Origin: Melieria omissa
Lineage: Eukaryota > Arthropoda > Insecta > Diptera > Ulidiidae
Length of the DNA stretch: 64,000 nucleotides
Direction: 5' to 3'
Assembly: GCA_963971225.1 (NCBI GenBank)
Contig: OZ020269.1
Location: forward strand, 18,536,921-18,600,920
Position numbers and translations under genes: made by a program. Below the pieces are notes generated by a model. It saw only the letters and a program-made list of their open reading frames with translations. It did not search any database and was not told where the DNA came from. This document shows, one piece after another, positions 14,886 to 46,600 of the stretch. Within the stretch, counting starts at the first letter, position 1; each line of letters opens with the position of its first letter.

Positions 14886-15214
14886 ATTGAAGACTTTTTG
14901 TTTTGAAATTTTGTTTATAGATTTTCATAGACAAATTGCAGTGCAACTTTGTCATAGATGGATGATGGATAGTTGGACCAATATTGACAAGACTTGTACA
15001 AAAACCTCAACAACTGCCTACGTGGAACTTGTATCATATAAAAAAATGTTCTACTGCAATTTGAGTTTTTTTCTTTCAAAATTCTGTTAATTTGGTTTGA
15101 CTACTTCCTTACTACTTACTCATCAACGTGCGCCAATTTCAATGAAACTCAATAAATTAACTTGTTTTTGTATATATTTTGTAGATAACTAAAATATTTT
15201 TGCATGTAAATATA

Positions 15215-15290
15215 ATTTGTTTGTTTTTTTGTTTTGTTTTTTTTTTTGTTTTTTTTTTTGTTTTTTTTTGTTTTTTTTTTGTTTTTTGTT
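15215..15290. repeat. T-rich low-complexity tract
   Basis: Runs of 6-13 T separated by single G over about 75 bases. It lies just downstream of the first peptide gene (minus strand). Confidence 0.8.
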
Positions 15291-15523
15291 ACTTTCCATA
15301 CAATGAAACAAATACAATAACATTTCATAAACACCTTTAAACAAATCAGGTTCATTAACCTAAGAACTATATATAAATATTTGCAAATGCGCTTAAACAT
15401 AAAAGTAAAGATCAGTCTATTTTTCCAAAATCAGCTGCAACAGATTTGTGCACATTTCCCAACCCCCCAACTATTATTCAATTCAATGTTCCTTTTCCCA
15501 ACTTCGACTTCCAACTTCCCAAC

Positions 15524-15977
15524 TTAGCCAAAAAGATTCGGCACGAAGAGCTTCTTGCGTTTGGCGTGTGTCTCCTTGAACTCCACCAGATGACCCTCAT
15601 TCACAACTGCGTCTTGTCGTCTGTTACCTCGCACCGCTGACAGGGGCACAGCAGTAATGAAGCCATCTTCGAGGTAATAGTAGCCACGATGAAGGCGCCG
15701 CAGTCGCGCGTCTCTTATGGACTCCAAAAAGTATGCGTCAGCAATGTTCTCCACAGGCTCCACATAGCTGTCGACAAAGGATTGGGCTGGCTTGCCAGCA
15801 GTTAGAACCAAGCGACAGGTGCCAACGATGAATAGCAGTAGAAGGAAATGTGTGATGAAGTGCTGTAAAGTGGAAAAGATATGTAAATAACGAGTTGAAA
15901 TAGGAACTTTGGAGTCTTTAGAGTCTTAAATACATTTTAGAAGTAAAGTTATCTGTTTTAAATGTGTCACTTACCAT
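15524..15977 (-). CDS. Secreted small peptide precursor, family member 1
   Basis: I do not recognise this gene; function unknown. Two minus-strand exons: 15975-15977 (only the ATG, followed by donor GTAAGT) and 15524-15862, joined in phase 0 to give 113 residues. Residues 1-24 (MHFITHFLLLLFIVGTC...) form a strong signal peptide, so the product should be secreted. Residues 62-64 are YYY in the block GYYYLEDGFITAV. A basic cluster KRKK (102-105) is followed by the last eight residues LFVPNLFG. The terminal Gly after a basic cluster is the layout of an amidated peptide precursor, but this is inference. The other three members lie at 21.3, 22.3 and 26.7 kb in the same orientation. A TATA-like box sits at 16096-16105. 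Cysteine occurs only in the signal peptide. The microexon is inferred from splice signals and the pattern shared with the other members. Confidence 0.78.
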
Positions 15978-16095
15978 ATTTTTTGGTTTTCTTTTTTACT
16001 TTAAAGCAGTAAAAATCCACTAAACGTGTATCCAAAATGTTATCCAAATCGTAATCCAACGTGATTTATTTGTATGTACTGCTTTGCTGCTGTTT

Positions 16096-16105
16096 CTTCA
16101 TATAG
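16096..16105 (-). promoter_or_regulatory. TATA-like box of peptide gene 1
   Basis: Minus strand reads CTATATGAAG about 120 bases upstream of the ATG, which leaves room for a 5' leader of roughly 90 bases. Confidence 0.4.
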
Positions 16106-17005
16106 AAGTTCCAGCACTTTTCTGTTATATTTGTTTTCTGGTTTCAATCCACTTAGTTTTTGATCAACTGGTTCTGATCAACTTGATTTCAAATTGAATA
16201 TTAATGCTGTATTTATTGCTTGAGAACTTGATGCTTTCAAAGGCACTTGCTTTCTGTTTATGAATTTTCAGCGCCACTTTTCTTTATATATCGCCCCGAT
16301 AGCAATTTTTCGCACTTTTTTCGCACACACCTGCGAAATACCAACAATGGCTTATTTTTCAACAGCAACAAAATTTTTTTTTTTTTTACAAGTAACCACA
16401 TTGTTAATGTTGTTGTTATCATAATTGTTATCAAGTTGCGTACATGAATGCAAACGGCAACCACCCACCGCACCAACAAGTGGCTGAGCAACAAAATTAT
16501 TCTAACCAAGCGAGACTCAATTGACTATTTACTTGCCTGCCAACGCACGTCATACGCTACTTAAGGTCATCGTTGTGTAGACGCATCGGTGCGCTACGAG
16601 ATCACTTAACGGCTCCACCAACACCAATTTTCGACAATCTAATTGATTGAACTTCATTGCGATTGGAATTCGTTACTACTTATTTGTTTTACATATGGAA
16701 AATTTTACAATTTTTTTTTTATACATGTTTGTGTTATAAAAAAAAATTAGAATACCAATAACAAAAGTGCAGCACTGGCATCAGAGGCCTTCGGCTGTTT
16801 ACAATTATTGGTGAATTGCTAAGTACTGAACTGGCAACATTTTAAATGCAGCATTACAATTGGGTAAACACGTCTCTCAAAATATTTGCTTTGATTCTTT
16901 ATTGATTTCAATGATATATCAGTTGACTGTTAATCGTTTTGTGTTATTCAATTCGACTGTGAATCATTTTCTATAGAGAACAGTAAAGAACGACTTACTT
17001 GCAAT
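16106..17005. other. Upstream region of peptide gene 1
   Basis: No gene recognised. Contains a short T-run at 16374-16387 and AT-rich DNA. Confidence 0.35.
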
Positions 17006-17007
17006 GA

Positions 17008-17272
17008 GTTCAAGTTTGTGGCTTAAGTCTTTTGTTTAAGAAGTGTGGCAGTCTGTCTCATTTTCCATGCATAACAGGAAAGAGTAACTAACCAAAAATT
17101 TGTTTGAGTTTGTAGCTTAAGTCTTTTGTTTAAGACGTGTGGCACTTTGTGTCATTTTCCATGCAGGAAACTAAAAATTAGTTTGAGTTTGTTGCTTAAG
17201 TCTTTTGTTTGAGATATGTGCGCATAGTCACACTAAAAGCTAAATAACCCAATCAACGAACTAGAAACGTGA
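17008..17272. repeat. Three tandem-like repeat units
   Basis: Three imperfect copies (about 17008, 17101 and 17180; spacing 80-95 bases) share GCTTAAGTCTTTTGTTTAAG followed in the first two by GTGTGGCA and CATTTTCCATGC. The third continues into GTCACACTAAAAGC and AACGAACTAGAAACGTG. A fourth partial copy lies at 19120-19162, and the distal part recurs at 20166-20220, so this is a dispersed repeat that has also been locally duplicated. Confidence 0.65.
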
Positions 17273-18112
17273 CTTTTACACTTTACTTAACATTTTCAAC
17301 CCGTCGCCCATTGCCGCACATATGGCACACATGAAATGTACAATATTTATTACCAACTATAGCGCAAATCAGGAGCAGTGAAAATATGCAGATTAGTTAT
17401 TGTGCTTTTTGCAAAAGTGTTAAATGCTTTGTAGCACAAAAACAACAAATAACTATACAAAACTTCCACACTTGAAGCCACAGACACATTTCTTTAGCCT
17501 TGAGAGAAAAATAAATTTCATAAAAAATTCCGAAAATCTGAAATTAAAAATTTTTAAATAAATGAAATTGTGCCAAAAACATTTTACTATTTTTTGTACC
17601 ACACTTTTGTGTTATTTCTTTTATGAAATTTCACACTTTATTAAAATTTTGCATATGCCTACATAACTACAACACTAAATTTTTGTAGAGAAAATATAAA
17701 TTTGGTTCACAACAGATGCGTAAAAATTTCCATTAATTTTAGGGTCATTGTATAGTTTTCTTTTGTGTTAATTTGAAGCAAGTTGGGCGCTCATAACTAT
17801 ACACAAAACACACAAACTCTTACTCAGTCTCAGCCGCTATTTGGCACGTAGACCCAGATTGAGCGACTACTGTCTGTTTTTTTGATTGATTTAGTAAAAA
17901 CGGCAGGCAAGTAAAAATCGGATGAAAAAACCTGCCAATCAAATGCCACAATTCCATTTGTTATATGTGCGAATAAAAATTGTTTATTTGCATTTGTGAA
18001 TTTGTGAGCAACAACTTGTTATAATCTGTACTCATTTAGCTCTTCTTCATTCATCGATGCCTACATTTTTTTATTATTTGATGACACGTCCTTTTGAATA
18101 AATATTTTTCAG
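17273..18112. other. No gene recognised
   Basis: AT-rich intergenic DNA with no supportable exon or inverted-repeat element. Confidence 0.35.
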
Positions 18113-18400
18113 TACCATGCGTTAACATGGTCTGTTGCACTTATGGATGCTAAAATGTCTATCGCTATTGCTTATATTTTTAACTTCTACATTTTTCTAC
18201 TAAATGCAATATGTATGGTTGTCCATATGACAGCTGCGCAAAGATATTCTAAATTTGCAAAACTGTTTTTTACTATATCCGAACGTAAATATTTGTTAGT
18301 GGATGTATTGACATGTGTGCCTTTTTTTGTTGATTTTTACGCAAATCTAAAATTTCGATGCTTCACTTGGTTATTGTTGATTTGTATTGAGCAGCAGTAG
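18113..18400 (+). CDS. Hydrophobic open exon, unknown
   Basis: An open frame preceded by an acceptor-like sequence (AATATTTTTCAG ending at 18112) and ending in TAG. From the acceptor it gives YHALTWSVALMDAKMS and then long hydrophobic stretches separated by short polar parts. That is compatible with two or three membrane segments and a basic loop (AQRYSKFAKLFF). No upstream exon was found. It could be the last exon, or the relic, of a multi-pass membrane protein such as a chemoreceptor, or a chance AT-rich frame. I do not assign a function. Confidence 0.25.
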   Translation, partial: YHALTWSVALMDAKMSIAIAYIFNFYIFLLNAICMVVHMTAAQRYSKFAKLFFTISERKYLLVDVLTCVPFFVDFYANLKFRCFTWLLLICIEQQ

Positions 18401-18695
18401 CCGGCAATTTCAGTTGTTTACTAAAATTGGAGTTGTAAATTTCTTGTTTATTGTAACCTGAAAGGCAGACAGAAATACAACTTATAAATAGAACTTTGTA
18501 TTAGTATTATTTGGAGAAGCATACTTTAAGGAAGGATGATAGCATCCTTAACCCAATGATGTCTTAAGCTATATGTTATTTTTGGCCACAGATATATTGT
18601 TGACAGTGTCCATGCACACAGTTACGTAGACATTGCTGCCCATAGTACTGCAGCTATTGGCTTTCAGTTTGACTAACTAGTGCCTCGGCTTGCAA

Positions 18696-18989
18696 CTACT
18701 TGAAGCAGATCTGTCCAGCCCCACCATTATGTGATTCTGTGGCCTTCAATACGCAGTCCAGACACTCTTTTATCCAGTCCGTGCCCCAAGCTCCTTCTCC
18801 TTTAGAGTCATCTTGCCAAAGTACATGTACCTGGAATGTCTTAAAATTCGGCAATTTACTTATACAGTGAGCAGAAATCTCTTTATGCTATAGACACATG
18901 TCGCAAATGGCAGCATTATGTCTCCAAATTCGATTGAAAAATTTAACAGCATAAATCCCATGACTAAATATCCTCACAATGTATCTCAT
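18696..18989 (-). pseudogene. Broken coding segment, family unknown
   Basis: From ATG at 18987-18989 the minus strand reads MRYIVRIFSHGIYAVKFFNR and continues to CDMCL, then a TAG at 18888-18890. The same frame continues with protein-like sequence for 63 more residues (for example QVHVLWQDDSKGEGAWGTDW, then IKECLDCVLK) to a second TAG at 18696-18698. Composition (Trp, Cys, Gly, acidic residues) is unlike AT-rich noise. Either a pseudogene with one in-frame stop, or a last exon, because TATAG just before 18887 could serve as a splice acceptor. I do not recognise the family. Confidence 0.4.
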
Positions 18990-19916
18990 ATTTAGTTTCC
19001 TAGTTTTTAGTTTCAACAAATAATTGGTCCAACTGAGTTGAGGCGCAAATAAATATCTTCGACTGCCTACACATCCGTATCTCGTGACAGTTTCTTAGAG
19101 TAACCAACTAAAAATTAGTTCAAGTTTGTTGCTTAAGTCTTTTGTTTGACATGTGTGCGCAGTAAACATGATTTAGTGTTGTATGGAGATTCTTGGGCAC
19201 AATAGATCTACAGGTCGCAGTGCATCAACCCCATCAATAATAATGGAGATTCTTAATAATAGTTTGTAGAAACCCAAAAGTGGACAACACAAAAACTCCC
19301 ATCGTATGGGAGACGCCCTCTGGTGGTGAATTTCTGAACCTTCATTATTTTGTATATTTTGTACTCAAGAATGTTAGCGATCGCTGAATAAATAATCAGT
19401 GAAATCGGTTCAGTAGTTTTCGAGATACGATGTTTTCTCACTTACTTAACTATTACATTTAAAAGTGAGGAGTCAATGGCATAGAAAATGGCCAGTTTTG
19501 TATGGCAGCTTCCTTAAGAGTTGGATATAGCGGGTAGGTATGTTTGGACGAAACATTTGGAAGGGAAAATAAATGGGTGTCGGTCATACATTTGACACGT
19601 CTGGGGGCAACCTGGAAGCAATGGGAGCCCATTTTATAAAAACGATCATTTTGTATGGGAGCCCCATTAAGGATTGGAGATGAGGTATAAATATGTTTGA
19701 AAGAAATAATCAGTAGAGAAAACTAGTGGGGATCAGTCATAGATTTTAACTCTCTAAGAGCAACTTCTGACCAGCTGTAGAGCAATTTGTCGAATTTTCT
19801 AGCTTTTTTGTCCCACTCTAGCCCCAAAAATGTTTCGCTCATACACTTTTTCACCCAACCGCATTAAATTAGAGGTTGCAGAGCATTGAAATTGAAAAAT
19901 ATTGCACTAAATCATG

Positions 19917-20160
19917 TCGCTCCTTCGCTGCAAGAACGTCATAACCCCAAAAAAATTTTTTTCAGTTTATGGCAGCCCTGTGTGTATCTGCATATGATCT
20001 TTTATCTGTCAAAACCTCTTTGTGAAATATTCAATACTTTGCTCACAAGACGACATGAAAAAGTTGATACCTTGAGCTGCCTGCAATGGCAAATTTTAAA
20101 ATTGAATTTTCTCGGAATGATGTAGTTTTGAGTTATGACGTTCTTGCAGCGAAGGAGCGA
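19917..20160. mobile_element. 244-base MITE with 29-base perfect inverted ends
   Basis: Both ends read inward TCGCTCCTTCGCTGCAAGAA followed by CGTCATAAC, 29 bases with no mismatch (19917-19945 and 20132-20160). The interior is non-coding and AT-rich. No clear target duplication: flanks are ATCATG and TGTGTA. A GTGCGCAGTCAC repeat piece follows at once. Confidence 0.75.
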
Positions 20161-20324
20161 TGTGTAGTGCGCAGTCACAGTAAAAACTAAGTAACTCAAC
20201 CAACGAACTAAAAACGTGCATACAGTGCAATAGTTGCTTAGAAGTAAGGTGAATCACTTTCAAGGTTTCTAGAAACTCCATGGATGGCCCAAGCAAAGCA
20301 TTTGACATTCCCTCTGGACGTAAC

Positions 20325-20705
20325 TATAACTTTATAAAGAAATAAACCCAACGTACAACTGAAGAGTTTGTCATTCTTTCTCCAAACAACAATAGTTTTC
20401 TCTCTAGGCGCCTTGGACCTTCCAGCGGAAACACGGAAACCCTCTACTGCGTTGAACACTTTTTCTGACTTCATTTATCAAACTTTATTTGTCACCCATA
20501 TACTTTTACTCTCGTAAAAATGACACAATTCTTCCCCCTATTTATAGTCAACTGCCACGTAATTGTGGCCCAACGTGACGTATGAGTAACCCCAACTTTT
20601 AACCGCAAACAAGTGTGACAAAAGTGAGCGTGGTTCGCACCTTGACTCGGTGCCTCCTCAGCATCGACTAATGACATCAAATATCTGCTATGTGACACTG
20701 GCGCT
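20325..20705 (-). mobile_element. Probable solo LTR
   Basis: On the minus strand this stretch has the layout of a long terminal repeat. Near its start is AGTGTCACATAGCAG. A strong promoter CTATAAATAGGGGG (20534-20547) is followed about 50 bases later by polyadenylation signal AATAAA (20484-20489). About 160 bases of U5-like sequence follow, ending near GTTATAGTTA. No gag or pol adjoins, so it is a solo LTR. Exact boundaries and target duplication are not visible to me. Confidence 0.5.
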
Positions 20706-21313
20706 AAGAATAAACATTAAAATTTCGCGTTAATTTCCTCTGACGTCACTGAACTTTTACACAAAGTGTATGAGGTCTTAGTTATAATTCTCAGTACTTC
20801 AAATGATTCAATTGCAGCTGATTCAAAGGCTAATTTTAAGCATGTTACACATTCATGACTGAATGTTGTGTATGCCAAACGTATGTAAACATTGCACCAT
20901 TTCAATGACGTCCAGGTGACTGCAGCTTAATACGAAGTAGACTAGTTACGATTTTGCCCTTCAATTAATGGTGTTTCGGCAACATTTCTTAAATTAAGCA
21001 GAGAAATTAACAGTTTTTAAATATTAATAAAAACTTTATTTAGTTGGCAAATAATTTCACTTGGAACTCTCTTGAATGGGTTACATTAGAAATATTCAAA
21101 GCATTACTATGGCGGCGTTTGTTATTATATTCCCACATGATACATATGTCAGTTTGTTTTGACCACTTAAAAAAATACCAAACTCAAAAAAATGAAGCAA
21201 AAACATAAAAAATTCAAAACCTCACGCTGCTCTACAGGGTCCAAGTCATCAAAGTTGAATTACAACTTACTATTTGTGCCATTTAATCCAGAATACAAGT
21301 CTTAAACCACAAT
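20706..21313. other. Downstream region of peptide gene 2
   Basis: No gene recognised. Contains the probable 3' untranslated region of the peptide gene that ends at 21314 (minus strand). Confidence 0.35.
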
Positions 21314-21837
21314 CTAACCAAAAAAATTCGGCACAAATAGTGGCGTGTGTTCTTCTATTGGCCTTTCAGTGCGATCTTCAATGCGCAATTCATGTTCCAA
21401 CTTGGAACTCTGCACCGGAATTACTGCATCTGAATTATCGTCCACGTAGTAATAGCTGCGTTGGTGGCGCTTGAGTGGTGCCTTAGTTGTGTGTTGTTGT
21501 TGCTGCACGCTTTTGGGCACCTGTTGCACAGGAAACAATTCGACGGATGGTACTGGCGATACTGACTGACAGCCAATAACAATGCTTAGTGCAATAGTCA
21601 AGATGACAAGGCACCATGTGGAAAAAGTCTATGCAGAAGGTAGATAAAATTTATGATGTTAATTTGTCTTAGTTTGTGTCACCTTGGATGTGACAAGTTG
21701 TCACAAAGAGTGTATGTGACAAAATATGCATTATGTACGTAAACAAAAACTGAGTCTTTCTGATATGATGACTATTACAATTTGTGACTATTACAATCTG
21801 CGTGAGAACTTGAGCTCTTACATACCATTCTTCCCAT
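21314..21837 (-). CDS. Secreted small peptide precursor, family member 2
   Basis: Unrecognised gene of the same family as those at 15.5, 22.3 and 26.7 kb. Exon 1 is 21826-21837 (codons MGRM, donor GTATGT). Exon 2 is 21314-21628 after acceptor CTGCATAG. Phase 0, 108 residues. Residues about 5-24 are hydrophobic (TFSTWCLVILTIALSIVIG), a signal peptide. A Gln/Pro-rich middle includes QQQQ (46-49). YYY occurs at 63-65 in SYYYVDD, and the C-terminus is LFVPNFFG. Unlike members 1 and 4, no basic cluster precedes the terminal motif; it is preceded by EEHTP. If the family is processed at basic sites, this one would be cut elsewhere, for example at KR (57-58). A TATA box lies at 21931-21940. Confidence 0.75.
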
Positions 21838-21930
21838 TCTTCTGTTTTTATTTAGAATTCCAATACTGTTTGAACACTCAACCCTGTTGCAAATAACTTT
21901 AGCTACTATTTGAAATCTTTTGCAGTTTCT

Positions 21931-21940
21931 GCTTTATATA
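21931..21940 (-). promoter_or_regulatory. TATA box of peptide gene 2
   Basis: Minus strand TATATAAAGC about 95 bases upstream of the ATG, implying a leader of around 65 bases. Confidence 0.5.
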
Positions 21941-22329
21941 GAAAAATTTATTGCTAAAAATTTACACACCTATATTTAGAAAATTAAATATAATTAGTGA
22001 ACATTAGAGTAGTCTCATAAATTCATTAATGCGAACAAGAAAACACAAGAACTGTCAACTTTCTGTTAGCTTTTTCAGGGACAATTAATTTGTTGCATTA
22101 GCACATTTGTTGCTAGAAGATATGAGTTTATTTTTTCTGGTTTTTATTTTTTTTTTAATTTTTTTAACAGCTTCGGTTATGCCAGAATGCTTTAGTAAGT
22201 AAAAATATGGATTGTTTTTTTTTTTTTTTTTTAAATTGAATAAAAATATGCTAGTCAAAGTGACTCATTGATAAACTACAACATAAACATAAAACCAAAA
22301 TTTCTCTTTACAACAGTCAATCACAAAAT

Positions 22330-22747
22330 TTAGCCACAAATGACTGGCACCAGTAGCGGTTTTCTGCGTCTTCTGTTGCGTTGTTTCTTCGATTTGCCCA
22401 CTTCTGTGATCAAAGCACTTTGATCGGCACGTCGATGGCGCTTATTGCTTGTCAGAGCAGCTGGTGGCGCATAATCCTGCAATGGTTGCTGATAATAATT
22501 GGGCACAAAATTGTTGCCAATTAATGAGTCATAACCAATTGAGCTCAATGCTATAAAGTTGCCCAAGTCAGCGTCTCTCTGTGCCAAACTTAGACTCTTT
22601 GCTATATGCAAAAACAGCCAAATCACAACTAACCACTGTTGAAAATAAACATTTTTTGTATTACTCACTAATAGTAATGATTTTTATTTTATTATATCTT
22701 TTAATTTTATTTTCATTTGTAATAGTTTAGCTCACCAATATTTCCAT
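22330..22747 (-). CDS. Secreted small peptide precursor, family member 3 (divergent)
   Basis: Same architecture as its neighbours: exon 1 22736-22747 (codons MEIL, donor GTGAGC), exon 2 22330-22635 after TTTTCAACAG, phase 0, 105 residues. Residues 1-22 (MEILWLVVIWLFLHIAKSLS...) make a signal peptide. It has diverged. YYY is replaced by NYYQQ (50-54), and the protein becomes very basic, with KRHRR (69-73) and RNRRRRK (90-96). The C-terminus is PLLVPVICG, with the family's only C-terminal cysteine. The VP and final Gly are kept. Minus-strand CATTATAAGG at 22771-22780 is TATA-like but sits only about 30 bases from the ATG, which would give almost no leader, so the true promoter may lie farther upstream beyond the A/T tract. 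Confidence 0.7.
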
Positions 22748-22805
22748 CTTGCACAATCGCCAATCAGTCGCCTTATAATGCTTCTCGATGCACACAATTA
22801 ATGTG

Positions 22806-22935
22806 AATTTTTTCTTATTTTTGAATTTTTTTTTAATTTTATTTTTTTTTTTAATTTTTTTTTTTATTTTTTTTTATTTTATTTTTTTTTAATTTTTTTT
22901 TTAATATTTTTTTTTAAATATTTTTCTTTTTTATT
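22806..22935. repeat. T-rich low-complexity tract
   Basis: About 130 bases of almost pure T with single A's (A-rich on the strand of the peptide gene), just upstream of peptide gene 3. It could act as nucleosome-excluding promoter DNA or be simple slippage. Confidence 0.8.
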
Positions 22936-23345
22936 TATATTATTTTGCAATTTCAATTCGAAGCACCTAACTACTCCGCTGGCAATAACGTTCTGTTTCG
23001 TTTGGGCTCAAGATTTTCTACAAATGTTTCACACTGATGTGCAAAAATACTTGAAAGCTCGAACGTGCACCGCATCAAAAACCATAAAATTTGATTAAAA
23101 TCGTTAGTGTGCATATGTTTGTTTATTCGATTAAGTTTGCTGAGCTGGAAATTTTTCATATAGACACTATGCATGTGGACCAATAGAATCAGTTATAGAT
23201 TGTTTTTCTTAGTGATAGAACTTTCAATAGAAATAAACTATTGAATCAGTTGTCAGCTATAAATGTTGGAAAGCGATTTTACTGTTTTCAGTTTACCATT
23301 TCACAAATTTCGAAATATAACCGTATGAAACCCTTTGTGCGATTT
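22936..23345. other. No gene recognised
   Basis: Intergenic DNA between peptide gene 3 and MITE copy A2. No supportable coding sequence. Confidence 0.35.
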
Positions 23346-23349
23346 TTAA

Positions 23350-23725
23350 CCCTTTCGATTTTAAAGTTGCTGAGAGCAACTTCACCTATTATTTGTCATC
23401 TTATAACAAAAGCTACAATTGATTTCTGGGTTTAATTTAAGGAGGCACCAACAATTTAATATTTAATATTTACAAACATTTAATTGTTATACCCAAAATA
23501 ATTTCCAATAAATTGCAGCAATATCAGAGAAAGTTTGTGTTCTAATTGAAGTCTACGAATTGAGTGCGTTTGATCAAAACCATGTTTCTTTAATAATGGT
23601 TAAATAAAATGAAAAAGTTATAATTTTGTATTTTTCCATCAATGTTAAATAAATTTTCTGTAACTAAAAAATATTTTTACATAATTTTTTTAACCCATTT
23701 AAAGCTAAAATTGTTCATTGGAATT
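23350..23725. mobile_element. TTAA-flanked MITE, family A, copy 2 (truncated)
   Basis: Begins after TTAA (23346-23349) with CCCTTTCGATTTTAAAGTTG and follows copy 1 closely, for example GAGAGCAACTTCACCTAT and TTGTCATCTTATA. Similarity stops near 23725, where copy 1 still has about 140 bases to go, so the right end is lost. Confidence 0.6.
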
Positions 23726-23862
23726 TTGTAGAAATAAGAACTAAAGTTGTGGTTGGTTTTTAAGAGTAAATGTTTTCCTCTTTGCTACGCGGAAAAAATT
23801 GAAAGTAGAAAGTACTTTCTTCTTCTTCTTGACTGGCACGATTACGAGACTAAAGGCTTGAT

Positions 23863-24255
23863 TACACGTAACGAGTAGAGTGAGAAGACAGCAACTCGAA
23901 CGAGTACTCGTTTCGTCTAAACGGTAAGGCGAGTTCTTGATTGAGTCAGTGACAGATGAAAGTGGCGAGAGAGCCACTAGAATCACATTTTGTTTGCTAG
24001 GCCGAGCGACCACTACTTTACCGTTATATTTTTCTCTTTTCGCAGCGATTCGCGCAATCGCTCATCACATGCGGAATCGCTCGTGACATGCGGTATGCGT
24101 CACACACCACTTTTCGCTCGGTTGAGTTTAATTGCGCGAGTTGCTTAGTTCATTTTGTGCATTGTAAAACCGAACTGACTCGCCGCGTGTCGAAATACGT
24201 TTGAACAACTCGTCGCTTTTGCTCGCTATCCCAATTCTTTCGGCAATCAAGCCTT
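23863..24255. mobile_element. Possible MITE with short inverted ends
   Basis: Both ends read inward AAGGCTTGATT (11 bases, then T-A-C on the left and G-C-C on the right). The 393-base interior is less AT-rich than its surroundings, with repeats of GCTCGTGACATGCGG type. No clear target duplication, so this is tentative. Confidence 0.35.
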
Positions 24256-24482
24256 AAGCCCTAGCTACCCGAATGTTTTTTCAAGGTTGGAAGGGACCTA
24301 CAGTTTTATGCCGATTCCGAACGGCGAGTTAGAAGCTTTTTTCATAGGCAATTTTACTCTCAGAGGAAAAATTTTTGTTTTTCTTTTTTTTCGGTATTAG
24401 CAGCATCGGAGTCTTGAAACTGGGTTCGAACGTCGCATTTGACTCGCGGCCCAACGCACTAGCCAGCTGAGCTACGGCGGCT
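24256..24482 (-). mobile_element. tRNA-derived SINE
   Basis: On the minus strand the head contains an RNA polymerase III A box TAGCTCAGCTGG (24463-24474) and a B box-like CGTTCGAACCC (in 24421-24432) at tRNA spacing. The 3' half does not pair back to GCCGCCG, so this is not a working tRNA gene. A LINE-like body follows with GGCATAAAACTGTAGGTCCC, a phrase I associate with fly LINE/SINE tails. Confidence 0.65.
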
Positions 24483-24674
24483 GTCAAGTATTACAAGTAT
24501 TAGTAATAGATCCAAAGTACTATCACTGCCATTTTATAACATCTTTCACTTCATCTTTTCACTGTCAACAAACGACTAAGAAATTTTTAGTAAAAACTTC
24601 AGACCGAGACTATTCCTTTAACTTAAAAGATAGAGTACATTTCAAATATTTCTTCTTTATATTATGTCATGTTT

Positions 24675-25166
24675 CAAAAACCCATTTGGTGCTCCTGGAC
24701 CGGGTGCAAAACCGTGCGATTAAACTTATAGGGGACAGTAGGGCATCCAGCTCTATTGACTCCTTAGAACATCGTCGAAACGTGGCGTGTGTGGTGTGGT
24801 TTAACCGATACTTTTTCGGCAATTGCTCAGTGGAGATGAACAGTTTGATGCCATCACTCCGGGTATTCCCACGGGCAACCCGTTTGAACACTGGCGCTCA
24901 TACATTCCACGTTGAAACGATGTTCCAGCGCACTACGCACTACAGGGAAAGTTCGTTTCTGGCCCGTACAGCGCGACTGTGGAATAGTCTCCCTGCGGAT
25001 ATCTTCCCCAGCACTTATGATCTCGATGGGTTCAAGGCAAGAGTCCATAACCACTTCACTCTTAACCCTATCTCCTAACCTTTATATCCTTCCTGAACCA
25101 ACGGAATGCCTCGCATTAATAGGGGTCATCCCCTGCGCGTTTGTTCGAGTTTAAAAAAAAAAAAAA
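24675..25166 (+). pseudogene. 5'-truncated LINE (jockey/CR1-like) with poly-A tail
   Basis: An open frame (24686-25078) encodes the C-terminus of a non-LTR reverse transcriptase. VLLDRVQNRAIKLIGD comes first, then LEHRRNVACVVWFNRYFFGN, and finally SSFLARTARLWNSLPADIFP. These motifs are characteristic of the thumb and C-terminal region of jockey/CR1-clade proteins. About 70 bases after the stop comes a run of 14 A (25153-25166), the retroposition tail. The frame has no stops, so insertion is relatively recent, but the reverse-transcriptase core is absent and it cannot be active. Confidence 0.8.
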
Positions 25167-25228
25167 GTTTTGCTTTTAAATTCTTTGAATTCTATCCTTT
25201 TTTTAATATAGGAGGTTAATTCAAGCGC

Positions 25229-25579
25229 TCAGACAAGATTGTGTCTATAAATACTTGATGATGAAACTCCACGTGGGGAAATCACTCCACTCATTTGGGC
25301 AAAGTGAAGGATTTCAAACAATAACCTATGCTTATAATTTTCACCAAGAGTTTCCAACTGTTTAGGAATGCAAAGTCTGTGGTTAAAAAACGCTGAACAA
25401 ATAGTGGAAATGTGCACAGTTGTATTCTCTTCTTTTAGATAAAACGTACAGAGACTCTTAGCCAATAAACCAACCAGTGGCGCACTGAGGATTTCATTTG
25501 AGGAGCTTGGAAACAACTTTTTAGCCGAATACCATTTGAAACCATATTTTTTAATGACCAGTTTGAATGACTTAAACAA
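25229..25579 (-). pseudogene. Open fragment of unknown (transposon-like) protein
   Basis: A 116-codon frame reading KKYGFKWYSAKKLFPSSSNE, then LLAKSLCTFYLKEENTT and SGVISPRGVSSSSIYRHNLV. Composition looks like real protein, but I do not recognise it. No start context, promoter or neighbouring exon supports a live gene. A repeat on its right (CACCGTGCGACAAA at 25661) recurs at 58965, which suggests a transposable-element relic. Confidence 0.3.
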
Positions 25580-25654
25580 AATTCCTCAGTCACTCTGGTT
25601 AAGGGAAGAAAGCCATTATTTTAAATCAAGTGATATTCTTCTCAAAGCTGCAGA

Positions 25655-26060
25655 GAATTACACCGTGCGACAAAATTCAAACAAATTTCAAAACACACGA
25701 AAAATCGATAAACTTGCAAGACTAGGGACCAAATGTAGTATAACTGCGTTTTTAGTTTTTCTCTTTGAAGTCAGGAATTTTTTTAAATGGACTTTGAAAT
25801 TTCAATTACATGTTTATTTCAAAAAGTTTTTATTTTAAAAATAATTATTTTAAAAACTGAGCACATTATTGAATAACAATATGGGTATCAAATGAAAGAG
25901 AAAAATCCTTAGAACCTAAGAAAATTTCAGGTTTTGGTACAAAAGGACGAAGAAGTATTGAAAATGTCCTTTTAAAATTTTATCCTTGAATATCCTTGGA
26001 AATATCTAATAGTTATTTTTGAAAAAAATATATCTTAGGGACTAATGTGCACACTACCAC
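25655..26060. repeat. Dispersed repeat, copy 1
   Basis: Starts ATTACACCGTGCGACAAAAT and shares further blocks (ACCAAA-TAGTA-ACTGCGT, TTTTTAGTTTTTC, TGTCCTTTTAAAA) in the same order with 58960-59110. Ends unclear. Confidence 0.4.
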
Positions 26061-26677
26061 ATCCTCGAATTTCGTTCTTCTACCTTTATTAGTTTAAAAT
26101 ATAAAATTTATCGGGCTGCCGATAATATAAATCATCACACCTATCTAAATTTTGATTTTACTCGGAATAAAGCTGCAAGTGAAAATGTTTGTTTGGTGGC
26201 AGCAAAAGTACAATGAAGAAAAAATTATATATTTTTCTGACAGTTTTCGTAGATGGAGAAATTTGTGGCTCTTCCCAGTGAACTATTCAAACTTACCAAC
26301 CCCCCCATCCTTATCCTACTTGAGCCTTCTTTCTTATTGCCAGTTGAAAGCATCTAATTACTAATTTGTTATAATTTTCTGTCTACTCTGTCCAACTTAA
26401 CAGATTAATGAACCATTTTTTAAAACAAAAATAAAACTAAAACACACAACTTTTTAATTTTCAATATAACATTCAGTTTTATAGTATAAAAAATATGTTT
26501 TCCAATGCTTAATGCAATTAATTAAAAATTCAAACTTGAGCATGGCACAAGTTATGCAAACAAATCCTTTAAATATGTCTTTAAGTGTAGTATTAAAATC
26601 TGACCACAAAATCATAAATTCAGTCTTTATACTCCAACAATCACTGCCAACAACAACGCTCTGGTATAACTCAGTGC
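26061..26677. other. Downstream region of peptide gene 4
   Basis: No gene recognised. Likely includes the 3' untranslated region of the peptide gene ending at 26678 (minus). Confidence 0.35.
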
Positions 26678-27132
26678 CTAACCAAATAAATTCGGCACAA
26701 AGAGCTTCTTCTTCTTGGTGTGCGTGTGTTTGTACCTGACTAGAGGCGAAAATTGCACCGTGCCGGCCACGTTGTCCTTGCGACGTTGGGCCGACTGTTT
26801 GCCCCGCTGCACGGCGCTTATATAACCGTTGTCCACATAGTAATAGCCCGATGGCAGCGGTCTGCCAATCAACCTGTAATAGTCCTCGTCCAGATTGTCC
26901 AAAGCAGTGGCTGGCTTGGCCTGGCTGCTGCTGAATTGCATGGCAACGAAGGCCAGCAACAAAAAGCAAATGGGAAGATGCTGCAAGAGAAGGTGATGGA
27001 AGATATGGATTAACTTCAGAGGGCCTTAATTTTTTTGAAAGGACAAGATTCATTGGTATATTTGGCACTTTCTTTGACTTAAGTAAGTAAAGAGTTCTAG
27101 AATGTGTTTTTTTCACTTACCATTTCTCTCAT
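26678..27132 (-). CDS. Secreted small peptide precursor, family member 4
   Basis: Unrecognised family; function unknown. Exon 1 27121-27132 (codons MREM, donor GTAAGT), intron 26981-27120, exon 2 26678-26980 after TTCTCTTGCAG. Phase 0, 104 residues. Residues 1-25 (HLPICFLLLAFVAMQFSSS) form a signal peptide. YYY lies at 50-52 in GYYYVDNGYISAV, nearly the same block as member 1 at 15.5 kb (GYYYLEDGFITAV). A basic run KKKK (93-96) precedes LFVPNLFG at the C-terminus, identical to member 1. These two are the closest pair despite being the outermost genes of the array. A strong TATA box lies at 27315-27322. Cleavage after KKKK and use of the final Gly for amidation would release a seven-residue peptide; this is inference only. 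Confidence 0.8.
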
Positions 27133-27314
27133 ATTTTCTTATGTGCGCAGTCCTTTTAAATATTATCGCTTCGTAACATGTAATGTGTGGCGCCTTTGCG
27201 TTATCAAATAACCAATCAACTTGTACACAGTTCAATTAGCCTTTCCACTCTGTGTCGCTGTGAACGTTTCTAATGCCCGTTGAGTTCTGCTTGGCTGCGT
27301 TGCTCGATCACACA

Positions 27315-27322
27315 TTTTTATA
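27315..27322 (-). promoter_or_regulatory. TATA box of peptide gene 4
   Basis: Minus strand reads TCTATAAAAATGTG. About 185 bases upstream of the ATG, implying a leader of roughly 155 bases. A weaker TATTTAAAAGG at 27152-27162 is too close to the ATG to be preferred. Confidence 0.5.
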
Positions 27323-28255
27323 GATAACAAAATGTGTCACAAATTCTCGCTACGCTCCGCTTTCCACTTGAACACTCAACATTAGGTGAGATATTTATCA
27401 AACTTATATAACATTCTCATCGAGACAATCCGTCCAACTGGGCGCGACGTGCTGCTAAGTTGATCGAGCGTACGCTTGTTGTGTGTATTGGCGCGTTTAG
27501 CGCCTTCTTCCAACCACTTCATCCAACCTGCTGTGCCGCCCGCATAGTGGATCGCGCCTGACTCACACACGCCCCGCTGCAACTTTCAGTCCTCAATTTG
27601 TAGGGAGGCGTATGTGACTAAGCCGGCGTCTGGGTCGGACTCTAATTAAATGTTTTGCCGTTGCTTTTCGAAAACATTCAACTTTGTGTTGTGTTGTGTC
27701 TGTGTGTATTGTTTTTGTTTTTAATACTCGAGTTTTATTGAGTGCACGCCGCTTTTATAATTTGTTAGTGTCATTTGTTAAGTCAACAAAGCAATGCGGT
27801 GTGTTTTGTTTATTATTTTTTTTATTTTTATTTTTTCTTTTATTTTTCATTTATCTGAGTTGTTTTTAGTGGAAGATTTGCTGGGTGTTTTATGACTTAT
27901 TAGAGTCAATTAGAGTTAAGGGAAATTTTTAGGCGCACTGCTTCAGTAACCACTAATGACTCCGTTCAATTTTCGTTAATTAGTTGCAAGGAAATTTTAC
28001 ACAATTTAGCTACTTTCGAATTAATTTTATGTTAAATTTTTCAGTTAACAAATCATAAAAACAAAAAAGTAATGTTTAACCAAATATTTTATTGTTTTAT
28101 GTTTGATTGTGTTATTGTTTTTTGTTTTGAATGAAGAAAATTGTTGTTTACCGAAGAATGTTAGAAGACAAAGGTATATGAAATCTTACTCAGACGGTGT
28201 TCAAATGGTTTCCGGAATTGAAAAAAAGATAAAATTATTTTATTTTTATTTTTTT
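27323..28255. other. No gene recognised
   Basis: Upstream DNA of peptide gene 4 and AT-rich intergenic sequence. Confidence 0.35.
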
Positions 28256-40600: not shown

Positions 40601-43600
40601 CGACACGAGCGGCGTGAGCGTGGTGGGCGTCACCGAGCCCGGCCGAAAGAACTGCTCCAGGCCCTCGCCAATCTCCTTGGTGGCGCCGCCCTCCACTGTG
40701 ACTAGCGGGCGCGTGGGTGCGCGCGTCTTGGCGCGCTTGGGCCGTCCCTTGACCAGATGCTGCAGCTGAAACGAAGCGCTCGGCAGCTCCGTAATCGAAT
40801 CACAGCACTCGTCGCCGACGCCATCGTCGCCACCGCTGCCAGCGCCGCCGGTTATGCTGCCGGCGCCAGTGCCGTTGGAGTCGCGCGGCGATAGTTGTGA
40901 CGAGGAACGATGCGACGACGGCGACTCGAGCAGATCGGGAATGTGGCCCAAGCTTAGGTTCTCGACAACTGACTGTGGGCGCACTTTGCGCGCAACGGAG
41001 CGACGCTTGGTGGGCAAATGCGGCGTGGCCTGTGACATAGAGAAAGTCAAGTGCCGTGGCGACATATTAGTATTTGATGGCAAACGTGAAATGAGTGATG
41101 GCATACGAAGAAGAAGAAGAAGACGAGAAATGTGAAAATTAATAAAAGCAAATGTTGAACTAAAATACGCTAAATGCGAGCAATGGCAGTTAATGATGGA
41201 ATGGGGCGCATGAACAATGCACAATGCATGATGATGAATGTTGGTGCTAAAGTGCTAACTAAATATGCCGAAATCAAGAGGGGGAATTGAATGCTGCACA
41301 ACTTAAGGGTACATTTCGAAAGATAAAAAACAACTACCAAACAATAATAGTAATGCTTATAAAACAACAACAAAACAATATATGTATGTAGAGAGCAGCA
41401 AACCAAATCATATCAACCGATATACCCAAATCAACTATTTACTTAGTACAGTGCGGGAGAACTGAATGGGGTCGGCAATCGACCGCAGAACACAAAAATC
41501 ACCCATGTACGAGCTAATGTATGTAAATGCGTACTGAGAGGCCACTACTTACAAGGTTCAGATATTCCAATTTCTGTTCAAGTACGATTTGTGATTTTGA
41601 TTCAATTTTTCATTTTGTTTGGTTTTTTGTCAAATTTCATTGTACACAAATTTTGCGGATGAGGTTAGGTGGATTTGTTGTTAAATTTTTGTTTAGTTTG
41701 GTGGTTTAGATTTTGTTGTAGTAGTTGTTGTTGTGTGTATGTTAACGATTGTTTCATTGATTGATTGATTGATTGATTGATAGCATGATGAACGAGGGGG
41801 AAGAGGAAGACACAAAACAAAACACAAATGTTTTAATTTTTTGTTGTTGCTATTGTTTGACGCAAAGTTAAACACAGAATCAATGAGTCTTATTGTTTAG
41901 AAGTGTATGTGTGTGTGTATTCTATGTATAATATAGTGGGCCAAGTCTAAGTGTTTACTTATGCGTGTGGATGTATGCAGCTAAGTTGCACTTTTGTGAT
42001 GCTTTCTAGTGTGCTGTGTAGTTGTTTTTATATATAGGTTTTTTCAAATTTAAATTGCCTCAAATTCAGTGTATTCATTTTTTGCAATGCTATGTGATAA
42101 ACGCTATGAAATTATGCACAATTTCTTCTCATTTTCATATACATGTAGCGTGTGTGTGTGTGTTTTGTTTATTTTTACAGTTTATCCAAATATGTATGTG
42201 TGATATAGATTGTAAATAGTAGTTTATATGTATTTAATGGATAATGGTATGAATCACACATCTGCTCTAGAATATGCAAATAGTTTTAGTATATATTCTG
42301 TTGTGGCTATTGTGGCAAATGATTTTGTGGACTTATTGCATCCACTTGGGCGGTGATATGGCGAAACTTACAGTGGGCGATTCTAATCCTAACTTTGGCA
42401 GTATTGAACCTCTGCCAGGTCGTATAATCATGCCATCGGCGTCCTGAAAATGAAAGAGAGAAACACATGTGAGTCAGTTTGATTAGTAAACAGAGCAGAG
42501 CTACAAGTTGTGAGTGAACTGTGATATGTTCCATGTGAAAGGAGAACATTTCTCTAACCACAAACGCAAATACGTCAACAGGCACTTGAAGTGTTTGTGA
42601 GAATATTTGGTGTTAATAATTGTAATATTTATTGTTTGGTTTTGGGAATTTCCTTAGTGATGTTTCACTTTGTAGACTATGTAAATAACTAAACATAACT
42701 GTTGGACGCTTTAAAAGCATTGAAAACTATTCAACAATTGCACGAAGATGAATTGAACTCAACTCGAATTGTAAAGGGTGACTTTTTTAGCAACATTTTT
42801 TTTGTCAACACTGTTTTTGGCAGCTCAGCTGTTTTCGTTTAACATGTTACTATCAAACATGTTCAGTTTGTTCTATAATTTAACCATGAATCGACCTTAC
42901 GAACGAACAACGCTTGCAGATTATGGAATTTTAGTATCAAAATTCATTAAGGTTCATTAAATTTCATTAAATTATTAATTACACTGTGCGTGAAATTTAC
43001 CCTCCAAAATTCAGACATGAGGGCGACCTACAGAGGACTTTTCTATAGGTATACTGAGTTGAGATCCAACAGCCGTTTGGCTGGATTGGCTCTAGTTTAA
43101 GAGAAATCCGACTTTGAAGTTTGCTCATTTTAGTCGAGTTCGTCGCTTGAGTCTTCGAGTGTTTAAATGCTAATAGATCTTAAATCGTTCCGAATACCGC
43201 TTTGCTGTCTTCGGCAAGTTTGTAGATATTTTAACGACCAACAAATTTACCTAAAACACCAATCCATAAAAAAATACATTCAAAATGTGTTTTCGACAAA
43301 AATTTTCCAAAAATCCAACTTTCGTCGAGGCATAAAAACAGTATAGCGAACCCTCGTGAAAAATATAAATGAGTATGCTTGATGCATTTCAGTCTTGTCT
43401 CAGACAGATCAGCTAGAGAGCTAATCAGACTGTTCCCCAAGGAATTTAGTCTTTTAAAAGCAAAGGCAGGGCAGCCGCAGAGGAAGTGTTCGAGTGTTTC
43501 CCTCTCGTAGATTTCCCAGCAGCTTCTGCAAAAAGGGTTGTGGGGGATTCCCAATCTCGCCGCGCGTAGACCAATTGGCCAGTGGCCGTTAGCCTAGAGA

Positions 43601-46600
43601 CATTCCTACGAGAATTTAGCAGCAAATCGTTGGTTCTGTGGAAGTCGTAGCGTGGCCAGATCTGTCGAACCACTCTGCAGCTGGAGATGATTGCTTTCCT
43701 CAGGAAATAATCCTTTAACTGTCTAAGCCTTACACTTAAAGTCGGGGCCACCCTTTCGGGCTGTGAGTCCATGGCGGATCCCACCTTGGCCAGCTCGTCA
43801 CCTGACTCGTTTCCGCTGATACCCGCGTGACCCGGTATCCAGCAGATGGTAAGATCCACCCGGCCACTCACCAACCCTAGCAATTCTTTACAGACTCTGA
43901 CTAGTTTAGATTTCACTATGGACTTGGTGAGTGCCTTAATCGCTGCTTGGCTGTCTGAAAAGATGTCTACTACTATTACTCTGGATTTCTTGCTGTAGGA
44001 GAATGCTGCAGGCTTCTCTTATTGCAAAGACTTCCGCTTGAAGGACACTGCATATATCTGGTAAGTGAAAAGCTTTTTCCTCTATCAGATCCCTGGAGTA
44101 AATACCTGCCCCAGCATTACAGTCCATCTTTGAACCGTCTGTGGTTTCTACGTTTGCAAAAGAGGATGCACAACGCTCCCATTCCCTTCTGGAGGGAAAG
44201 AGCGTGGAAAACCTAACATCAAAGCCGGCATATTCTTTGGTGTAGTCCGTATACCCCCTTAGGTCCATCGGAGGATGTGAGGATGTTACTGTGTCCGTAA
44301 GGTCTTTCCGCCCATTGGGATGATTTTCTCAGTCTCAATGCGCTTGAAGCGGCCGTCCGTCTAATAAAAGATTCAATCGGCAGCAGATGAAGGAGCGTAT
44401 TTAAAGCGTCAGAAGGGCAGGACCTCAAGGCCCCCGTAATTCCGATACAATGCCACTCTCTGCACTGCACTAAGTCGATGATATAAAGAAAACCAATCGT
44501 CGCAGTGATTGTAAAATTTTTAAATATTGAGCTTAATGCAAAATATTAAAAGTCATTGAGAACCAGATTCATAACTTAAGCCGTTTTAGTTCTAGTGTTA
44601 AAAGCAATCATTTTATATTGTATACGGTTTTGCCTATCTGTCTGTAGTAAAAAATACGCACATGTTTACTAAAAAATACACACGAAGCTTAGCTTTTTGG
44701 CTTTCTAAACACCTAAACACATCTACAAACATTACAAACCTGGAGACCTTGTTGGTCTTTGACCGAGAAAAAAAATTATCGGTTATCGTAGGGTTAAACA
44801 TTGAATTATATAGATCGTTCTATCGTCTCAAATAAATATTTCATACATCTCTCTTAAATTTATGTGTATTTTTTTAATAAAATCCAAAGGCTCTTAAAAA
44901 ATTACCCGATACAAACAACAATCTTCAACTTGTATTCAACCTGTGGTCATATGGAAGAGTAGCTTAAGTCGCCATACATTAGAAAGAATTGAATTATTGC
45001 TTTGGGAACTTTACAGAAGTGAAGGCGCTTAAATTTACTTTATTCCTTTTAAACTTTAAATGTTATGCCTTATTTGTTAGCTTAAACCTTTTGAAACAAC
45101 AATAATTTTCAAACTTTAATTTTTCAACTTAAGTTACTCTTCCATATGACCACAGCTACAATGTCAACACAAAACACTCTCTCAGGCCGGGAGAACAAAA
45201 TGACTACATAAATGGCCGCAAAAAAGACCAAATCAATTAAATAAAACTCTGAAACTGATAAGAGACCAAAAAGTTGGCTCATAGATAAATGAAAAATCCA
45301 TAACAATGACATCAGCAGAGGCCTACAGCAATTTTAAAGCTTTTGCTTACATATACATCCGCGAAAATGCCAAGAAAGAGAGACTGAATTTACATTTAAA
45401 AAAAATCATCCGGAGAAAAAACATTTAAATGCGTAAAACGCTTGCAAAAAAAATTTTGCGGAATTCAAAACGTGTAGATAAAAACAAACACGGCGCAAAA
45501 GAAACGTAGACAAAGGAACGCACAAAATTTATACAACAAATAAATGCGGCGTGGAGCGAGCGGTGGAGAGTTCTAAGATTACACAATATCTAAATACAGC
45601 AATGTATAGTACACACAGAACATGTAATCGCCTGTGTGCACATGGAAGAGTGCAATAAGCCACATGTAACAGGCAGCGCTCGCTATCAGTGCTGGCTGAG
45701 CGATAAATCCAAAAGCCTGCAGACTCTAAACACACACAGTGATTTACCTACTTTCCGACTAGCCTGGGGGCAAATTGTAAAGTCGAAAAGAGAACAGAAC
45801 GAGACGTTATTGAAAAACAAACATTGTGCACGTCTAAAGTGGGCAAAGGCAGATTGCAGAACAAAAAATTGGTTTCAAATTGGTTTGGTAGAAGATTTTG
45901 CAAATCACAAACCGAGTCGCTGAAATCGAATGTTATTCTTGAATGACAATTTCTTGGAATAATTAACACTTGTTGCATTGATTTCAGCTTAAATCATTTA
46001 ATCAGACTGTGTGCTTGCATGACGCACTGAAGCTGCTGGTTTGCGCGCAAATTGAGCGTCTCTGAAAACCAAACCGCGAAATATTTTACTCAGAGCAACA
46101 AACACCTTTCAATTGCCAATTGGCCCCAACATTGGCACACTTTGGACTTTGAAGATGCAAAGGTGACAACAGCGGCGCTTATCACAAACTCGATATTTAC
46201 TATACAATTCACTTCTGTGCGCAACGAGTGCAACCTTCAAAGTTTTGCAATACAAAAAAACACGTCCACATTCATGACGAGGTGAACATAGCGGCTACGC
46301 TTGTTGCGTCTACTTACATGACTTGAGCGGCTGCGTACGATATCAGGTGTCTGCGGCTCATCGAGCAGCACCGACGGCGAATCGGCAATGCCCATGCCGC
46401 GGCGATAGCGTGTGAGCGCCTCCAGAACTTCATCGGTGGCCCGGTCCGAAATGGCAGCGGCCAGCGATTGTTCGATTTCACTGCAAAACCAACGAAGACA
46501 AACATTACAGACAAATCATATTTTTGTTTGTTAAGAACAAATCAAATTATGAAATTTTTTTTAACTAAAACTTGTTGAAATTCACTTTTTGTTGGCTTTT

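Follow-up and report, generated by a model that had tools for sequence, protein, structure and literature searches.

A four-gene cluster of candidate secreted precursors of the CG12826 family in the ulidiid fly Melieria omissa

A 64,000-nucleotide window of the Melieria omissa genome (Diptera, Ulidiidae; assembly GCA_963971225.1, contig OZ020269.1, positions 18,536,921 to 18,600,920) carries four minus-strand genes, here called G1 to G4, between window positions 15524 and 27132; the genome measures 490 Mb and the window lies on a 109.5-Mb sequence. The four genes share one gene structure and signal-like N-termini, G1, G2 and G4 are homologous to an unnamed fly protein family, and the C-terminal module of that family is conserved. 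The interpretation that is tentatively favoured, at somewhat less than even confidence, is that they form a locally expanded cluster of the CG12826 family of secreted precursors, the product being a basic amidated peptide that is probably local to the hindgut. The family is already in the databases, without function or name in the entries seen; no report of the four-gene cluster, with its two divergent members, was found in the open-access literature.

Gene structure and distinctness of the cluster

A sequence-only reading of the window had claimed four minus-strand genes encoding 104-113 residues, each with a signal peptide and a C-terminus ending in Gly, three with a YYY motif about 45-55 residues from the end, and all with introns at the same place. 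The genes, their Gly ends, the YYY motifs and the introns were found as claimed and at the positions claimed, and the signal peptides are borne out insofar as hydrophobicity predicts them. The gene models, in window coordinates, are as follows.

G1 exon 1: 15977-15975, minus strand; ATG alone, then GTAAGTGA
G1 exon 2 (coding and stop): 15862-15524, minus strand; signal-like start, GYYY block, NRRQD, end KRKKLFVPNLFG before the stop (G1: 113 amino acids, intron 112 bp, C-terminus LFVPNLFG)
G2 exon 1: 21837-21826, minus strand; ATG GGA AGA ATG, then GTATGTAA
G2 exon 2 (coding and stop): 21628-21314, minus strand; SYYYVDD block, end EEHTPLFVPNFFG before the stop, the motif without adjoining Lys or Arg (G2: 108 amino acids, intron 197 bp, C-terminus LFVPNFFG)
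G3 exon 1: 22747-22736, minus strand; ATG GAA ATA TTG, then GTGAGCTA
G3 exon 2 (coding and stop): 22635-22330, minus strand; without YYY, end RRRRKPLLVPVICG before the stop (G3: 105 amino acids, intron 100 bp, C-terminus LLVPVICG)
G4 exon 1: 27132-27121, minus strand; ATG AGA GAA ATG, then GTAAGTGA; the start is either 27132 or the inner ATG at 27123
G4 exon 2 (coding and stop): 26980-26678, minus strand; GYYYVDNGYI block, RRKD, end KKKKLFVPNLFG before the stop (G4: 104 amino acids, or 101 from the inner ATG, intron 140 bp, C-terminus LFVPNLFG)

All four follow a common plan, in which a first coding exon of 1-4 codons is followed by a phase-0 GT...AG intron of 100-197 bp and a second exon of 303-339 bp, whose product begins with a hydrophobic stretch, continues through a short and largely polar body and closes with hydrophobic residues and a final Gly. 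The best 10-residue hydrophobicity mean of the N-termini is 2.75-3.18 across the four genes, and the structure model of G4 predicts a helix over residues 3-17 of exon 2, at the signal-like start. By hand count, YYY begins 52 residues from the C-terminus in G1, 46 in G2 and 55 in G4, and is absent from G3. Loosely aligned to G4, the other proteins are 49% (G1), 26% (G2) and 18% (G3) identical to it, and few residues are common to all four. A canonical AATAAA lies within 400 bp past the stop of G2 and of G3; for G1 and G4 only variants were found over the same distance. TATATAA-type boxes on the minus strand at 16290, 21940 and 27410 stand 313, 103 and 287 bp upstream of the starts of G1, G2 and G4, and the box nearest to G3, at 22777, is merely 30 bp from its start codon; all of these are pattern matches in AT-rich DNA, given with no chance comparison.

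The degree to which the cluster exceeds chance was gauged from regional scans of 264 kb (the window and 100 kb on each side), which hold 6657 open reading frames (ORFs) of at least 25 codons. Exactly four of these, G1-G4, have a C-terminus of the form VP...G. An architecture scan that was blind to the C-terminus sought a start codon with up to four further codons, a donor, an intron of 60-300 bp, a pyrimidine-rich acceptor and an ORF of 85-140 residues with a hydrophobic start; on both strands of the 264 kb it gave six distinct candidates (one plus, five minus), four of which are G1-G4. Across the whole genome, the pattern [L]FVPN[LF]FG occurs at three sites, all inside the cluster, and control matches numbered 0. 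Whole-genome protein searches, which proceeded exon by exon with only the best candidates scored, so that a diverged distant copy could escape, recovered G4 itself and G1 only when G4 was the query, and the query itself with two weak matches (E 0.86 and 4.3) when G2 was used.

Family membership and relatives in other flies

Judged from their sequences, G1, G2 and G4 match a conserved unnamed fly protein family, two of them clearly and one probably. When the 6657 ORFs were compared with the family profile, G1 and G4, which are both rows of the profile, scored E 1.1e-36 and 7.1e-34, and G2, which is not a row, scored E 2.7e-7 over the whole ORF and 0.00018 for its best single domain. G3, also not a row, scored E 3.1, which gives it no place in the family by sequence, and the motif LFVPN[LF][FWY]G, found directly before the stop in G1, G2 and G4, is replaced there by LLVPVICG. 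G3 is placed in the group by gene architecture and position only, mainly because the architecture scan, which makes no use of the C-terminus, recovers it though its profile score is not significant. The proposal that the genes form a coherent local family holds for G1, G2 and G4 by sequence and for G3 by gene structure, and does not hold for G3 by profile.

A protein search with an alignment of the four window genes gave 37 matches at E<=10 among 625 candidates (best E 5.8e-16), and a second search gave 172 matches among 3213 candidates. A third, made with a short C-terminal alignment against candidates of about 35-112 amino acids, gave 23 matches among 194; this search for non-fly or G2-like relatives returned no non-dipteran name and, by eye, nothing closer to G2. 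Overall, 128 distinct homologues were retrieved. Many of the matches listed are nameless and every species-named one is dipteran, the hosts being gall midges and fungus gnats (Contarinia, Bradysia, Pseudolycoriella), scuttle flies, hoverflies, Drosophila, stalk-eyed flies, tsetse, blowflies, muscids and tephritids; for the second search these names come from the best 120 of the 172 matches, and the range says nothing on other insects or mosquitoes. Named homologues are labelled as uncharacterized, hypothetical or secreted protein, or by a gene number, and the family link to Drosophila melanogaster CG12826 rests on the name that depositors gave to the D. busckii member (P0057).

Pfam assigned no family to the four window exons, where the one lone match (E 0.093) fell under its cut-off, nor to any of 63 aligned members at E 0.01, a result that extends to the chitin-binding families. 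Searching solved structures by profile returned just two matches, with E of 0.46 and 0.64. The earlier statement that the genes match no known family is therefore right for Pfam and needs correcting otherwise, because an unnamed family is annotated across many flies, one member of which is named CG12826. An undescribed peptide system is possible. Of the roles suggested by the sequence-only reading, the immune and seminal ones may still apply; the single piece of tissue evidence found points to the hindgut.

The CG12826 relatives of Ceratitis (LOC101457300, LOC101457119) and Zeugodacus (LOC105215212, LOC105215223) resemble the window genes in their signal-like start, GYYY block, RRxD or NRRD site, basic module and LFVPN[LF]FG before the stop. 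In contrast to the one or two genes per named species among the matches listed, the window holds four; in G2 the basic module is missing, and G3 has no YYY and ends in LLVPVICG rather than LFVPN[LF]FG. The intron beside the start codon is in phase 0 in all four window genes; for homologues, partial or run-through protein models give hints only. In the open-access literature, no functional study of the family was found by end motif, gene names or topic, nor did a string search find an insect peptide with an LFVPN-type end. D. melanogaster CG12826 (FBgn0033207) is cited as hindgut-specific in a passage of one paper (PMC3411243), by analogy with which the four window genes may be expressed in the hindgut.

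The C-terminal module and its product

Conservation was assessed as column information over a 63-row alignment, and per-homologue counts refer to 127 homologues unless stated. Information averages 1.84 bits per column in the signal, 1.89 in the linker, 2.62 in the Tyr block, 1.93 from the Tyr block to the dibasic site and 1.31 in the spacer, and is 2.93 in the basic module QFSPLVRYKHTHTKKKK and 4.18 in LFVPNLFG, the last eight columns, where the invariance of LFVPN is partly a selection effect of collecting homologues through shared exact 5-residue words. The conserved C-terminal module as a whole, [FY]xPLVRYKxTxxKRKKLFVPN[LF]FG before the stop, is cationic, the last 26 residues averaging a charge of +6.3. 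The encoded protein ends in Gly in 127 of the 128 homologues and in all four window genes; the lone exception, P0069, is a model that drops out of frame ahead of the motif.

The dibasic site upstream of the module takes one of two forms, RRxD or NRRD, with one Arg invariant in 62 of 62 rows; this Arg is preceded by Arg in 38 and by Asn in 15, followed by Arg in 22, and has Asp two positions on in 53 of the 62. An upstream [KR]R is present in 116 of the 127 homologues, the last one lying at a median of 39 residues from the end (range 23-85). No Cys occurs beyond residue 30 in 122 homologues, and after the signal, cut by eye, G1, G2 and G4 have none and G3 has one; several conserved Cys, as in disulphide-stabilised antimicrobial or toxin-like peptides, were not found in the family. 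Module and dibasic site are complete in G4, partial in G1 (RRQD, ETHAKRKK) and absent from G2, and G3 has basic runs only. The unnamed homologues P0127 and P0128 retain STQ[ST][RK]RRKLFVPNLFG and have lost the upstream YKYTPLFQYK block, and they provide a natural test of which part of the module is essential.

The features that fit a basic amidated peptide, the favoured product, are Gly as the terminal residue, an invariant hydrophobic C-terminus, a conserved dibasic site and a lack of Cys. The precursor would enter the secretory pathway of gut epithelial cells, those of the hindgut in D. melanogaster, and would be cut at the conserved upstream dibasic site (RRxD or NRRD) to release a basic peptide of about 30-40 residues, the encoded terminal Gly giving rise to the amide (...KRKKLFVPNLF-NH2). 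Through its conserved LFVPN[LF]F end, the peptide might then engage a specific target, for instance a receptor carried by gut muscle, nerve or adjacent epithelium. G2 (acidic, with no basic cluster) and G3 (with an altered end), which lack most of the module and could not make the standard product, would be new ligands or relics, having diverged to other targets or being in the course of losing function. As a kind, insect amidated neuropeptide and gut-peptide precursors share with this scheme a secreted precursor, a dibasic site and a Gly end as amide donor, but they yield short peptides bounded by KR or RR, whereas one long basic product is proposed here.

Several points weigh against the amidated peptide. 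The peptide, its amide, its receptor and its cleavage are all putative rather than observed, and the invariance of LFVPN owes something to the homologue selection described above. Eleven of the 127 homologues lack an upstream [KR]R in the counted range, and G2 has a net charge of -3 over its last 26 residues and no Lys or Arg beside the motif. AlphaFold, given the 63 rows, found no confident fold for G4 (mean pLDDT 69.1, pTM 0.25), the weak model showing a hairpin that spans the Tyr block, together with the signal helix and two further short helices. Furthermore, conservation extends to the Tyr block (62-63 of the 63 rows at three columns, with a literal YYY in 87 of 127 homologues), although this block lies outside the proposed product; a structural protein would be suited equally well.

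Because the Tyr block is conserved too and the hindgut is lined by cuticle, the strongest rival, though an unlikely one, is a structural or matrix protein of the hindgut lining, cuticle- or mucus-associated, in which the Tyr-rich hairpin would bind or cross-link and the C-terminal motif would dock on a matrix partner. Such a protein would agree with the passage citing CG12826 as hindgut-specific (PMC3411243), with Tyr-rich blocks in homologues, for example of the YDPYDVYYFYPSSYN type, and with the weak G4 model, whose sole predicted strands form the hairpin over YYVDNGYISA. However, none of the 63 members matches Pfam, even among chitin-binding families. Conservation also peaks at the very end of the protein, where Gly directly precedes the stop, a pattern not expected of a cuticle protein.

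A gut antimicrobial peptide of the linear, cationic, amidated kind would account for the positive charge, the mostly Cys-free sequence and the terminal Gly, but is improbable given that LFVPN[LF]FG is strongly conserved from fungus gnats to tephritids, which is atypical of antimicrobial peptides, and that the C-terminus of G2 is acidic. A cut directly after KRKK, yielding the heptapeptide amide LFVPNLF-NH2 as a classical short neuropeptide, is disfavoured as quite improbable: nearly all homologues have basic residues clustered ahead of LFVPN, and the protein ends in Gly, but convertases prefer Arg directly before the cut, and the residue held there is Lys (124 homologues; Arg in 2, Thr in 1), the last four positions before LFVPN lack Arg in 14 and fit R-x-[KR]-R in just 1, the block upstream of the basic cluster is conserved too, and G2, having no basic residue there, is without the site.

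Age, surroundings and significance of the cluster

Relationships were examined in a midpoint-rooted tree of 44 rows, comprising 41 of the 128 homologues with G1, G2 and G4, and leaving out G3. G1 clusters with a longer tephritid form (support 94/84), and G4 with a shorter tephritid form (88/89) and then with drosophilid proteins (81/87), these supports being moderate and below the starred level (at least 95 and at least 80). Because G1 and G4 each join a different tephritid paralogue, the duplication that separates them is probably, not certainly, older than the split of M. omissa from the sampled tephritids. G2 sits on a very long branch, and its placement is unsure. Haematobia and Stomoxys each have two forms as well, and these fall into two adjacent groups within the calyptrates.

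Recent tandem duplication was rejected, since no direct repeat of at least 40 bp covers the coding parts of two genes in a search of positions 15000-28000 (exact seeds of 14, minimum 40 bp), as expected of old duplicates. Three families of direct repeats were found in that interval, none over coding parts; one, a T-rich low-complexity family, touches the G3 intron. Between G1 and G2 there is a diverged repeat of about 56-94 bp, with neighbouring copies at 17.0-17.2 kb and another at 19.1 kb (16964-17224, 19074-19167). In Scaptodrosophila lebanonensis, the gene model LOC115634653 (P0011) seems to be fused tandem copies, with two GYYY blocks and a signal-like stretch between them, and this species too may have a tandem pair.

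Flanking ORFs encode an MIT_C phospholipase-D-like domain, a MUS81-like protein, a leucine-rich repeat (LRR) protein, which we take to be U2A', and two products with CARMIL C-terminal domains; in D. melanogaster, U2A and a CARMIL homologue presumably also lie near CG12826. An ORF on the minus strand at 43449-44018, in the CARMIL region, has an RNase H domain (Pfam E 1.9e-6) and is probably a retrotransposon fragment. On the plus strand, a 211-codon ORF at 24443-25075 resembles by eye the end of a LINE reverse transcriptase, and has no Pfam match at E 0.001.

A wider claim is possible and leans to the doubtful side, namely that the family constitutes an unrecognised amidated gut peptide hormone, conserved in flies as far apart as gall midges, fungus gnats and fruit flies, made in the hindgut and having its own receptor, and that the four copies in M. 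omissa are distinct ligands. Few hindgut-made signals are known. If the peptide reading is true, a hindgut-made peptide signal would be conserved in an insect group that includes both major crop pests and the genetic model Drosophila, and CG12826, a gene with no function reported in the open-access papers searched, makes that reading directly testable in Drosophila.

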